Shown: positions 29,703-33,065 of the stretch, in pieces
How positions within the stretch are numbered: position 1 is the first letter of the stretch
Layout of the letters: each line of letters opens with the position of its first letter
DNA from: Streptacidiphilus carbonis
GTDB taxonomy: Bacteria > Actinomycetota > Actinomycetes > Streptomycetales > Streptomycetaceae
Direction: 5' to 3'
DNA length: 42,568 bases
Assembly (NCBI RefSeq): GCF_000787775.1
Contig: NZ_BBPM01000002.1
Location: 165,480-208,047 of the forward strand
The notes under the pieces: generated by a model
What the model saw: only the letters and a program-made list of their open reading frames with translations
The model's database searches: none
What the model was told of the DNA's origin: nothing
Made by a program: the position numbers and the translations under genes

Positions 29703-31076
29703 TCAGCTCAGCGGGGTGTAGTACAGGTGCATGCCCGGGATGGTCAGGTTGCCGCCGGTCTGGCCCGCCTGGATCGCCGTGGCGTTGGTCAGTTCCAGCG
29801 TCAGCGGGATCGGCACCGAGCCGATCAGGTCGTACAGCCAGGCCGGCAGGGTGTCCGGGGTCAGCGTCAGGCTGACGCCCAGCCAGGCCAGCGGGATGCC
29901 CTCGGCCTTGGACAGTGTCCCGGAGAGGCTGGTCACGTACATCGTGACCGTGCCCCCGCGCATCGTGGACGTCGTGCCCGAACCGCCTTGGACGTGCAGC
30001 TTCCGGCCATCCTGCGGTGCGGACATGTCCAGGTTGTCGATGTTCACCTCCTGAGCGGTGAACTTCAGCACCCGGACGTCGCCGCCGGCCGTGTGGACCG
30101 TCTTCACGCCCCAGAACTGAGCGTTGATCAGCTCCAGCCGACTGGTCTTCAGGGTCCACGGGTCCACCGGGAAGGTCCCGGCCGGCAGGGTCTCCACCGG
30201 AGCGGCCAGCTTGCTGGCGTCACAGAGCTTGTTGGCCGCCGCGGCCGCCGAAGAGCTCGGGTTCGCCGAGGCACTGGCGGTGGGGCTCGCCGGCGCACTG
30301 GAGGAGGCGCTGCTGCTGGGCGACGCGGTCGCACCGGCCGAACTGCCGGCCGCCGGCGCCGAAGCGGAGGGAGAGGCGGCGGCAGAGGTGGCCGCGGCAC
30401 TCGGGGTCGAAGCGGTCGCGACTGCGGCGGCACGCGGGGCCGTCGTGGGGGAGGCGCTGGCGGAGGGACTGGCCGTGGCCGCACTGGCGCTCTTGCCGCT
30501 CAGCAGGCCGCCGAGGCCGTCCAGCAGGCCGGTGATCGGGTCCGTGGACTTGGTCGCGGCCTTGGTCGTGGCCGAGGCCGACGGGGTCGCCGCGGCGCCG
30601 GCCGGGGACGAGGCGCTGGGCGCGGCCGTGGCCGCGGTGGTCGCGGCGCTCTTCGTGGCCGCCCCCAACCGCTTCTGCACGGAGGCGGACGCGGACGACG
30701 CGGCGGCGCTCGGCGAGGCCGTCGCGGTCTTGGCGGCGCTCTTCGCGGCGCTGCTCGCGCTGCTGCTTGCGCTCGGCGTCGCCGCCGAGGAGGCCTGGGT
30801 GCACTCCGCGCCGGTCGCTCCCGCGCTGGGAGTCGCCTGCGCGGTGCTGGTCGAAGCGGTCTTGGACGCGTCGGCGGCGAACGCCAGCTTGGGCGCGATC
30901 GAACCCACCAGCAGCGCCGTCGGCACGGCGGTCATCGCCAGCATCCGTCCGACCGGGAGCTGCATCCGGTCGCGCACGCTCATCCTGGGGGCCGCGTGGC
31001 GCGCGCCGGAACGGGGCGGGGCGGGCTGCTCCGAGGGGATGGGACGGTCCGACCGGTTGGAGTCGGGGTCACTCAC
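29703..31076 (-). CDS. Secreted Ser/Ala/Pro-rich protein with unknown C-terminal domain
   Basis: 457 residues from the GTG at 31076, chosen because AGGAGGAG lies 8 bp upstream. A basic N-terminus is followed by a hydrophobic stretch (MLAMTAVPTALLVGSIAPKLAFA, about 50-72) ending in an AxA-like site, so it is likely exported. Next comes a linker of about 200 residues made almost only of Ala, Ser, Thr and Pro, then a ~160-residue globular domain (CDASKLAAPVETLPAGTFPV...VRVLKFTAQEVNIDNLDM...LTIPGMHLYYTPL). That domain has the strand-rich, NIDNL-type texture of the DUF6230 protein encoded two genes upstream and may be related. Start overlaps the DUF6114 gene by 8 bp, so the two are coupled. Function unknown; a wall-spanning display role is an inference from the linker. 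Confidence 0.85.
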   Translation of the reverse strand: MSDPDSNRSDRPIPSEQPAPPRSGARHAAPRMSVRDRMQLPVGRMLAMTAVPTALLVGSIAPKLAFAADASKTASTSTAQATPSAGATGAECTQASSAATPSASSSASSAAKSAAKTATASPSAAASSASASVQKRLGAATKSAATTAATAAPSASSPAGAAATPSASATTKAATKSTDPITGLLDGLGGLLSGKSASAATASPSASASPTTAPRAAAVATASTPSAAATSAAASPSASAPAAGSSAGATASPSSSASSSAPASPTASASANPSSSAAAAANKLCDASKLAAPVETLPAGTFPVDPWTLKTSRLELINAQFWGVKTVHTAGGDVRVLKFTAQEVNIDNLDMSAPQDGRKLHVQGGSGTTSTMRGGTVTMYVTSLSGTLSKAEGIPLAWLGVSLTLTPDTLPAWLYDLIGSVPIPLTLELTNATAIQAGQTGGNLTIPGMHLYYTPLS

Positions 31077-31626
31077 TTGTCGTCTCCTCCTGGGCGGGCT
31101 GGGCGGGCTCACCAGCGTGACGGCCGTTCTGGTCAGCCATCAGGTGGTTGAGCTTCACCTCTTCCTCGTCATCGGTGTCGTCACCGGTCTCGGCATCGGC
31201 CGCGGGCTTCTCCGGCTGCTCCTTGTTGGGCGCCCAGGAGCACACCAGCGCCCCGCCGATCAGCCCGGGGAACAGGCCCAGGCCGAAGCCGCCGAAGTTG
31301 GACACCGGCAGCGACACCAGCGCCAGCACGATGGCAGCGATCCCCGCGAAGGTCCGGATCAGCGGCTGGAACCACACCGAGATGCCCAGGGCGAGCAGCA
31401 GCAGCCCGATGACCGCCGCACCCGCGCCCGCGGTCGTCGCCATATGGATGCGCAGGGCGCCGACACTCAGGTCGTTGTACGGGAAGTACATGATCGGCAG
31501 GCTGGCCAGGGCCACGAGCAGTCCGCCCCAGAAAGGGCGGCTGCGGCGCCAGTTCCGGAAGGCCCGGCGTCCCTTGGCGAAGGCGTTCCCGGGCTCGGGC
31601 CGCGCCGGTACGGTCGCGCTCGTCAC
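31069..31626 (-). CDS. DUF6114 family integral membrane protein
   Basis: 185 residues; GTG start preceded by GGGAG at 7 bp. After a basic N-terminus (GRRAFRNWRRSRPFWGGLLVALASLPIMYFPYNDL) there are four hydrophobic segments within residues ~30-130, including AAVIGLLLLALGISVWFQPLIRTFAGIAAIVLALVSLPVSNFGGFGLG and LIGGALVCSW. The remaining ~55 residues form an acidic cytoplasmic tail (ETGDDTDDEEEV). From memory this architecture is DUF6114, a family usually found next to DUF6230. The middle gene of a three-gene unit and coupled to the next gene by overlap. A role as membrane partner of the two exported neighbours is an inference. Confidence 0.82.
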   Translation of the reverse strand: MTSATVPARPEPGNAFAKGRRAFRNWRRSRPFWGGLLVALASLPIMYFPYNDLSVGALRIHMATTAGAGAAVIGLLLLALGISVWFQPLIRTFAGIAAIVLALVSLPVSNFGGFGLGLFPGLIGGALVCSWAPNKEQPEKPAADAETGDDTDDEEEVKLNHLMADQNGRHAGEPAQPAQEETTSE

Positions 31627-31689
31627 GTGGCGACTCCCTGGTGGAGTAGTGCATTCGGCTGGAGTGGTGCGGAACGTTCGGGAACACAG

Positions 31690-31715
31690 CGGGGAGGGAC
31701 CTGGGCCCCTCCCCG
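31690..31715 (-). terminator. Hairpin between the DUF6230 and DUF6114 genes
   Basis: A 9-bp stem (31690-31698 and 31707-31715) with an 8-base loop in the 158-bp gap. It may partly stop transcription, so the exported DUF6230 protein would be made in excess over the two downstream products, or protect the upstream mRNA. Confidence 0.55.
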
Positions 31716-31784
31716 ACAGTGTGGTGCGGAGCCTTTCTGAGTCCTACCGGGGGGCCGGGGGGTGGACCGGCCGCACCCGGTGGG

Positions 31785-32441
31785 TCAGAAGCAGCCCTTG
31801 GAACCCGAAGCGAGAGACATGTGCAGGCCGTTCAGCGAGAACGTGGAGGCGGAGGTCGCCCACGCGGTCTGCTGGACGCCGGTCAGCGTCGCCGAGTCGG
31901 CTTCCTGAGCGAAGGCGCCCGCGCTGGTCGGGTCGCCGTTGTGGGTCCCGGCCCCGCCGAGCGCGCCGGTCGCGACACCGATGTTGATGCCGTTGAACGT
32001 CGCGGTGTCGGCCTTGAGGTCGGTCATGTCGATGTAAAGCGACTTCGCGTCGACCTCAGGACCGGTGGCCTTGCCCGTCACCGGGTCGTACGAGCCACCG
32101 GCGTTGATGGTGAGCGTGTACGACCCGAACGGGGTGGGGAAGTCCACCGACTGGCACAGCTGGTTGATGGTGGCCGAGCTGAAGCCCGAAACCGCCACCG
32201 GCACAGCCGTGTTGGAGTTGGTGGCCTGGCTGGTGTCATGCGAAAGGACGGTGCCGTACTGGGTGAAGCCCTGACCGACCAGCTTGCCGGCCGACACCTT
32301 GAACTGCTGCCCGGAGACGCTGAATGACGCTGCGAGCGCACCCTGGGCGATGCTGACGCCGACCGCAGCCGTGGCAGCGATGGTCGGAACCATGACAACG
32401 GCGAACCGCTTCCAGCGGGTCCTGCCGAAAGTCTGGGACAT
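31785..32441 (-). CDS. DUF6230 family secreted protein (annotated as cholesterol esterase in some streptomycetes)
   Basis: 218 residues from the ATG at 32441, set by a near-perfect AAGGAGG 8 bp upstream. The N-terminus RTRWKRFAVVMVPTIAATAAVGVSIAQGALAAS is a signal peptide or anchor with a likely cut after ALA. The mature part is strand-rich: FSVSGQQFKVSAGKLVGQGFTQYG, VAVSGFSSATINQLCQSV, SLYIDMTDLKADTATFNGINIGVATG, EADSATLTGVQQTAWATSASTFSLNGLHMSL, ending in KGCF. Two cysteines (NQLCQS and the C-terminal one) could form a disulfide. From memory, homologues are labelled cholesterol esterase, but no lipase GxSxG motif is visible, so I treat that name as doubtful. First gene of the three-gene unit. 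Confidence 0.85.
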   Translation of the reverse strand: MSQTFGRTRWKRFAVVMVPTIAATAAVGVSIAQGALAASFSVSGQQFKVSAGKLVGQGFTQYGTVLSHDTSQATNSNTAVPVAVSGFSSATINQLCQSVDFPTPFGSYTLTINAGGSYDPVTGKATGPEVDAKSLYIDMTDLKADTATFNGINIGVATGALGGAGTHNGDPTSAGAFAQEADSATLTGVQQTAWATSASTFSLNGLHMSLASGSKGCF

Positions 32442-33065
32442 AACGAGGTCCTCCTTCTCGGACGTACATCTCCGGCCTGCCCCGCTTGGGCCCCGGCCTG
32501 GGATGGGGAGAAGAGCTACGTCCTCGGGAAGGGGAGCGCGTCGGCTGCGGGCTTGAGCTCGTGAGCACGAATTCTCTTGATCGGCAGCATCGGCGATCAC
32601 CCCCGAGTGACAACCACATGCCGCGCTGGGTACGCGGCAGGGTGAGGACAGGCTCCACCGGACGGGGCTGGAGACCCCCCTGTCCTCAAGAGACCGGATC
32701 GCCGGCCCCTGCCCGGTGGGGATTCCGCGTCCACTCCCCCGACTGGCCGTCGAGGCGGTGGACAAGGACCGGGCGTGCCCGATGTTGGTCCAAACGGGGC
32801 CGCTGCACAAGTAGTTCATTACTGACGAGTAAGGAGTGCGTGAACCCAGAGGGGCAGATGAACGGCACCTGAACTACGGAGCGTGACATCCCGGAGGTCC
32901 AGCACCTGGGCAAAGTGCCGATACACCCATCAATCCGGCGACGATCGCCACGCACGGTGACTACCGCCGCCGGATGTCAAGATTTGGTAAACACGTGCTC
33001 TTGTCCCGACTTTGTCGCCAAATCTCCAGGATTCCCACAAACCCGCGCAGTGAACCGCAGAGCCC
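32442..33065. other. 624-bp intergenic region upstream of the DUF6230 gene
   Basis: No credible gene. It contains a nested hairpin (outer arms gaggacag/ctgtcctc at 32644-32651 and 32680-32687, inner arms ctcca/tggag at 32653-32657 and 32669-32673) and a perfect palindrome at 32819-32832. The length and these structures suggest a regulated promoter and long leader for the DUF6230 unit. A -10/-35 pair could not be fixed. Confidence 0.45.
32819..32832. promoter_or_regulatory. 14-bp palindrome TTACT-gacg-AGTAA
   Basis: Perfect 5-bp arms around four bases, in the long region between the DUF6230 and thioredoxin-like genes. The size and symmetry suit a TetR- or GntR-type regulator; the protein is unknown. 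Confidence 0.4.

Follow-up and report, generated by a model that had tools for sequence, protein, structure and literature searches.

Streptomycetes widely carry a three-gene unit that encodes two related exported proteins and a small membrane protein. We tentatively propose, with less than even confidence, that this unit is an RNA-controlled envelope system for handling lipid, whose leader is switched at the level of translation, and not a classical esterase. The unit was studied in a 42,568-nucleotide stretch of Streptacidiphilus carbonis DNA (contig NZ_BBPM01000002.1, positions 165,480 to 208,047; hereafter the window), where a DUF6230 gene, a DUF6114 gene and a third gene follow one another on the minus strand within positions 29703-32441, behind a leader that contains the RNA che1. 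Of 150 genomes sampled from the window's family (Streptomycetaceae), 148 carry DUF6230, often in several copies, yet we found no function for this protein, and transcriptomes are interpreted with an enzyme label that is unproven. Linking che1 to a concrete model of Shine-Dalgarno (SD) and anti-SD pairing and to a defined protein trio opens both problems to experiment, and the loop predicted for the third protein, with a hydrophobic segment at its midpoint, is an unusual and checkable protein design.

The DUF6230 gene (31785..32441, minus strand) encodes 218 amino acids (aa) and is a full-length member of PF19741 (model positions 1-145 of 145, 171.2 bits against a cut-off of 27.5, E 2.1e-50). 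The DUF6114 gene (31069..31626, minus strand; 185 aa) encodes a small membrane protein that is likewise a full-length member of PF19609 (positions 1-106 of 106, 114.9 bits against 27.9, E 3.4e-33), with hydrophobic segments visible in the family alignment (A4). It overlaps by 8 bp (31069-31076) with the third gene (29703..31076, minus strand; 457 aa), whose product comprises an N-terminal tail, a signal or anchor segment, a linker between two cysteines and a DUF6230-like C-terminal domain (C-domain). An earlier note on this DNA had described three co-directional genes, the last two overlapping by 8 bp, as an uncharacterised unit with exported or membrane-embedded products; the coordinates and Pfam matches agree, and the trio is also inherited together. 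It was intact in 40/40 loci picked from the top listed DUF6230 matches and in 80/80 further loci (the 80 nearest among 373 relatives of a single query, nearly all Streptomyces), which bears out the co-occurrence that the same note had proposed to check. At the scale of the phylum (396 genomes), 34 genomes had DUF6230 and 36 had DUF6114 at scores over the cut-off, with all 34 common to both (Fisher p 4e-47). One member of the window's family has a DUF6230 with 97% identity to the Streptomyces humidus protein, in keeping with the family being Streptomycetaceae. The analyses below use 124 trio loci, made up of the window, 43 other sampled loci and the 80 closest of the 373 relatives. For the third protein, 126 sequences were used (46 from the first sampled loci and the same closest 80 of 373), many of them close relatives.

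The DUF6230 protein is probably exported, as the motif ALAAS, which resembles an export cleavage site, stands at residues 35-39 ahead of the domain in all 124 proteins of class I, the class encoded at trio loci. The mature protein holds exactly two cysteines in 124/124, C96 and C217 in the window. Its AlphaFold2 model (AF2; pLDDT, the predicted local distance difference test, 89.7) is nearly all beta and lacks any helix of at least four residues. No solved structure matched the fold of DUF6230 or of the C-domain at a Foldseek E of 0.001 or below (best VIA Z 3.1), and this lack of a match does not prove that the predicted fold is new. The nearest candidates for DUF6230 were all at noise level: the secretin pIV (Foldseek E 1.2e-2, prob 0.08), 4zbo (VIA Z 3.1, root-mean-square deviation (rmsd) 4.8, 97 residues aligned) and a best E of 5.5e-3 in a viral structure library, which was searched with DUF6230 only. 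The same holds for the C-domain, with proaerolysin as the best Foldseek hit (E 4.4e-2) and a best VIA Z of 2.4 (rmsd 4.8, 78 aligned). Sequence searches of the PDB with the trio proteins gave nothing under E 0.05, and PADLOC and PHROGs gave zero matches at E <= 0.1 (third protein by its C-domain only). The Pfam title of PF19741 gives no function, and sequence comparison found no related solved structure for the family. In the literature searched, DUF6230 is named in a list of promoters (excerpt of PMC12835213), and no mention of DUF6114 was found.

Homology between DUF6230 and the C-domain of the third protein (29706..30221, minus strand), which the earlier note had suspected, is supported by profile comparison and by the predicted structures. 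The whole third protein matches no Pfam family at E <= 5, and PF19741 does not recognise the C-domain. Alignment of the two family profiles with hhalign (A1, 64 of 66 DUF6230 stretches; A2, 44 of 48 C-domain proteins) spanned 137 columns with an E of 3.8e-5 and a probability of 71%. When rerun with controls, the comparison scored 38.7 over 134 columns, against 18.2 for a reversed profile, at most 15.9 for column shuffles (n = 60) and at most 26.8 for block shuffles (n = 60); all 121 controls thus fell at or below 26.8. The AF2 models of DUF6230 and of the C-domain (pLDDT 87.8) share the same strand order and similar strand lengths, the C-domain having one more helix, in a comparison based on the order and length of strands and not on superposed coordinates. 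The structure prediction that the earlier note had suggested gave models with like-ordered strands.

In the window, the linker of the third protein runs for 192 residues between Cys92 (30801..30803, minus strand) and Cys285 (30222..30224, minus strand), and Ser, Thr, Pro, Ala and Gly make up 84% of the sequence that joins the export site to the C-domain. A cysteine after the export segment and another before the C-domain were found in 46/46 proteins of the first set and in 126/126 overall; every protein has at least two cysteines ahead of the C-domain, with a spacing of 99-260 residues between the final two. Counted from a point 40 residues ahead of this pair to the end of the protein, there are exactly two cysteines in 122 proteins and three in 4. 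Between the pair, the sequence consists mainly of Ser, Ala, Pro, Gly and Thr (46 proteins), with one hydrophobic, helix-like segment, which in the window is TKSTDPITGLLDGLGGLL (30501..30554, minus strand). This segment sits close to the middle of the linker. For the most hydrophobic 18-residue stretch, the mean relative position is 0.487 (standard deviation (sd) 0.025) in the 126 proteins, 0.490 (sd 0.037) in the 46 with ties averaged, and 0.479 (sd 0.032) in 32 less redundant proteins, as compared with about 0.26 for random placement. Its hydrophobicity exceeds that of shuffled linkers (at most 1 in 100 reach it) in 97 of the 126, that is, not in all. The lengths of the two arms correlate at 0.78 in the less redundant set (n = 32), a value that drops to 0.49 (n = 30) without two fused proteins. 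Near-equal arms with a cysteine at both feet suggest a disulfide-closed loop with a helix at its apex. Such a loop fits the invariant cysteines and the midpoint segment better than a straight form of the wall-crossing spacer of about 200 residues that had been envisaged before, although the linker may still be such a spacer. To our knowledge, a disordered, disulfide-closed loop with two equal arms, an amphipathic helix at the apex and a DUF6230-fold domain at the base would have no counterpart elsewhere.

Fusions argue that DUF6114 and the third protein work together. The two form a single open reading frame in two loci from another family of the same class (L061:7445-8983 and L062:6873-8405), where the cysteines are only some 100 residues apart and the linker keeps its hydrophobic segment. 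The paralogous loci L066 and L067 likewise join DUF6114 to the C-domain of the third protein, the C-domain match in L066 being weak (E 0.025). Together with the che1 leader and the published roots of the esterase label discussed below, these fusions go beyond what the earlier note had described. In L059, the trio may consist of three separate genes. L067:5140-9819 is a second locus within the window's family, in which two tandem DUF6230 genes precede the fused DUF6114/C-domain gene (an open frame of 857 aa). The DUF6114 tails in several loci were seen by eye to finish in a GRHxAG-like motif (window 31072-31130), and the N-terminal tail of the third protein bears a similar RHAAP motif (window 30960-31076). 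DUF6114 was also compared with the corynebacterial protein MusI (NCBIfam NF052431) and is not a member of that family: the window's protein scored 18.9 bits against a cut-off of 160, and 1 of 22 DUF6114 members gave a match at E <= 1.

Homologues of DUF6230 carry the label cholesterol esterase. Cholesterol esterases of Streptomyces are reportedly described by Xiang et al. (2006, 2007), who are cited for a 'novel family of cholesterol esterases'. The same label stands on SCO5420, a gene that rises almost 37-fold on Tween, in a genome where pyk2 is SCO5423 (excerpt of PMC7494193). In two loci (L197 and L191), the trio lies between a pyruvate kinase gene and a gene for a thioredoxin-tetratricopeptide repeat (TPR) protein, two neighbours recognised by likeness to the window's proteins. 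Given pyk2 as SCO5423, this placement means that SCO5420 should be DUF6230, by gene order and not by sequence. The lipid connection raised earlier thus gains a suggestive response to Tween, while the esterase label, then called doubtful, goes back to biochemically titled papers. The label is also attached to Sven_0933, which appears among nitrogen-response genes without an SCO counterpart in the excerpt of PMC3087709; given that lack, it is probably a paralogue.

The main rival explanation, which we regard as rather doubtful, takes this label at its word: DUF6230 would be a secreted hydrolase of esters, genuine if unusual, which DUF6114 and the third protein would help to secrete or fold. Besides the titles of Xiang et al. 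and the Tween response, it can draw on the name che1 that Rfam gives to the leader and on an S. scabiei 'cholesterol esterase' (C9Z6Y6, a putative DUF6230) that tops the lipid class of extracellular proteins in the excerpt of PMC5158115. The protein itself differs from a serine-type cholesterol esterase. Across the 124 class-I proteins there is no invariant His (best column 98/124), and GxSxG occurs in 1/124. Among polar residues, conservation reaches at least 97% for Ser, Gln, Thr, Cys, two Asp, one Lys and one Tyr, which show no evident triad, and the nearly all-beta model is not an alpha/beta-hydrolase fold. These features do not support a classical serine ester hydrolase, but DUF6230 may still be a hydrolase of a new kind.

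We consider it unlikely that the unit forms a structural or surface coat, in which DUF6230 would be the extracellular building block and the third protein a cell-bound copy for docking it. High conservation, the paralogous C-domain and the long Ser/Ala/Pro linker would suit such a coat, as may the divergence of S. pratensis Sfla_1909-1911 (hypothetical, hypothetical, cholesterol esterase), which an excerpt of PMC4239341 places among highly divergent core genes and which we take for the trio from label and order. A coat does not predict the response to Tween, and no fold gave it a solved-structure match above noise.

The leader of the DUF6230 gene contains che1 (Rfam RF02935; 32591..32686, minus strand), the only Rfam match in the window at gathering threshold. 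The match runs end to end (model 1-91 of 91, 76.3 bits against a gathering score of 54.1, E 1.9e-10) and covers both hairpins and a conserved 3' tail. As excerpted, the literature attributes che1 to Weinberg et al. 2017 (reference list of PMC8388888), describes it as a structured RNA that is common in Streptomyces and has no known function (PMC11678152) and, for S. lividans, assigns it to SLIV_11405 as a cis element, in a paper with RNA-seq support for 21 of 22 cis elements (PMC8079986). Patterns allowing up to 3 errors found the che1 core and a downstream SD block in 124/124 trio leaders, and the Rfam search, run on four of these, found che1 in 4/4. In 17 paralogue or outgroup loci scanned, che1 was not found at gathering threshold. 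That che1 is mainly a trans-acting small RNA (sRNA) with incidental cis complementarity, as the Rfam type 'Gene; sRNA' would have it, is very unlikely given its place upstream of the same gene in every trio locus, its absence at gathering threshold from those 17 loci and the cis assignment in S. lividans.

The Rfam model stops at the tail, and the features that suggest a switch lie beyond or across its 3' end (as compared with the Rfam model only). The che1 tail CUCGGGGGUGAUCGCC (32592..32607, minus strand), a proposed anti-anti-SD, is complementary to a conserved anti-SD block CUCCCCUUCCCGAG (32523..32536, minus strand), a pairing here called P4. The same block is complementary to the DUF6230 SD GAGAAGGAGG (32450..32459, minus strand). 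The SD sits in a conserved predicted hairpin, which is extended by pairing of GGACGUA (32517..32523, minus strand) with UACGUCC (32460..32466, minus strand). The strong ribosome-binding sites reported earlier are true of the sequence, with the qualification that the DUF6230 site is predicted to lie inside a hairpin. A leader alignment (A3) was built from 37 of the 44 listed leaders, of 124 known; L079, L080, L086, L099, L100, L110 and L111 were left out for length or redundancy. Across these 37 leaders, 96.9% of cells pair under a consensus structure that combines the che1 hairpins with the SD hairpin, compared with at most 47.1% when slid, and 13 pairs are changed on both sides, all within the che1 hairpins, a count that 0/500 shuffles reach. 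P4 pairs in 95.8% of 497 cells (46-65% when slid), and the SD hairpin, with its GGACGUA/UACGUCC and anti-SD/SD parts, in 98%. Six of the seven GGACGUA/UACGUCC pairs are unchanged in 37/37 leaders and the seventh in 35.

For most leaders, folding predictions could fit two states of this region. The pairing probability of GGACGUA/UACGUCC is 0.986 in the isolated 3' part versus 0.40 in the whole leader, and the unpaired probability of the SD in the 3' part is 0.234, versus 0.387 with shuffled upstream sequence, being lower in 93.5% of loci (123 of the 124 leaders entered both of these runs). In silico SD accessibility is 0.10 in the 3' part alone and 0.29 in the whole leader, and is higher in the latter in 93.5% of 124. 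The whole leader of the window folds no better than its shuffles (z -0.25). In some shorter leaders from the window's genus, such as L096, the tail and the anti-SD stand side by side, where a local hairpin is possible; the P4 probability of L096 is 0.93. From these models, the che1 leader may be a translational switch that hides or frees the DUF6230 SD.

A further hairpin lies between the first two genes (31683..31728, minus strand; -29.8 kcal/mol), starting 56 nt past the DUF6230 stop. Within the 110 nt that follow this stop, the strongest local hairpin averages -34.7 kcal/mol in 44 trio loci, compared with -22.2 kcal/mol in a control of one equal-length stretch within each DUF6230 coding sequence. 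The stems vary in sequence across loci and a few are weak (L099, -18.7; L109, -24.7). No U tract was seen at the window's hairpin (31683-31728), so a terminator reading goes without that support. The occurrence of hairpins at the same place in 44 loci is consistent with DUF6230 being made in larger amounts than the other two products, in line with the earlier suggestion that an internal hairpin could favour its expression.

These observations can be joined into the following proposal. DUF6230 would be made in excess, exported and locked by one disulfide; outside the membrane, this soluble beta-sheet protein would carry or bind an apolar lipid, possibly a fatty-acid ester, a wax or an isoprenoid. 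DUF6114 would be its small membrane partner. Beside DUF6114, the third protein would present a second DUF6230-type domain on a flexible, disulfide-closed loop with an amphipathic helix at the apex, and would hand over or sense lipid. Pairing of the che1 3' tail with the anti-SD would leave the SD open; otherwise, the anti-SD would close the SD hairpin. The hairpin after the DUF6230 gene would lower the output of DUF6114 and the third protein. A more specific form of the lipid proposal, which we think improbable, makes che1 the aptamer half of a translational riboswitch that has so far gone unrecognised. It would report a lipid- or isoprenoid-related signal and govern a new lipid-carrier system with a DUF6230-fold domain at the base of a disulfide-closed loop, the amphipathic helix at its apex.

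Several results weigh against the proposal that the unit handles lipid under RNA control. A 'putative cholesterol esterase' (SACTE_4612, a putative DUF6230) goes up on xylose and xylobiose, not on lipid, in the excerpt of PMC12772271. Clear lipid-type neighbours were seen at 2 of 12 paralogue or outgroup loci (20 neighbour proteins scanned), and the other neighbours are mixed, including glutamine synthetase, a signal peptidase, a lytic polysaccharide monooxygenase, pirin, pyruvate phosphate dikinase and an ATP-binding cassette ATPase, among others. The structure searches described above matched no lipid-binding fold. Two genomes (G174 and G243) have DUF6114 above its cut-off, with DUF6230 not found. 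The hydrophobic export segment of the third protein is followed by an AxA motif, at which the protein may be cleaved and released. On the RNA side, a table in PMC8079986 puts the che1 transcript of S. lividans with SLIV_11405 alone, and so gives no sign of joint transcription of the trio. Covariation is absent from both P4 and the SD hairpin in the 37 leaders, because both hardly vary. Only 58% of the 124 leaders have a P4 probability above 0.5; the value is 0.08 in the window's own leader, where SD accessibility is flat (0.169 versus 0.166).

The S. carbonis genome has one DUF6230 copy. Downstream of the trio in the window lies a convergent pyruvate kinase gene, and upstream, on the same strand as the trio, a thioredoxin-TPR gene; a TetR gene and a methylmalonyl-CoA-mutase-type gene stand farther out. 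Elsewhere, some second DUF6230-DUF6114 copies lack the third gene by hidden Markov model search (L064, L070). Two genomes (G208, G500) have two DUF6230-DUF6114 pairs in succession, with extra DUF6230 domains detected by PF19741 on the 3' side of DUF6114. L052 and L053 also hold two successive pairs, plus more exported-looking genes, and a signal-peptidase gene adjoins the L052 cluster. In L060:6465-9103, a gene for a wax-ester synthase/diacylglycerol acyltransferase (DGAT) lies about 80 bp upstream of the DUF6230-DUF6114 pair on the same strand. The divergent pair in L065:5748-9652 adjoins an MPAB/Lcp-type (rubber-oxygenase-type) oxygenase gene, as well as a gene with prenyltransferase and squalene/phytoene-synthase domains. 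The wax-ester/DGAT gene of L060 and the oxygenase gene of L065 speak for a link of the unit to lipid. In L056:6859-7896 and L057:6940-7902, the pair adjoins a gene whose product is TetR-like by eye. These last two genomes lie outside the window's class but within its phylum, so the DUF6230-DUF6114 pair extends well past the window's family.

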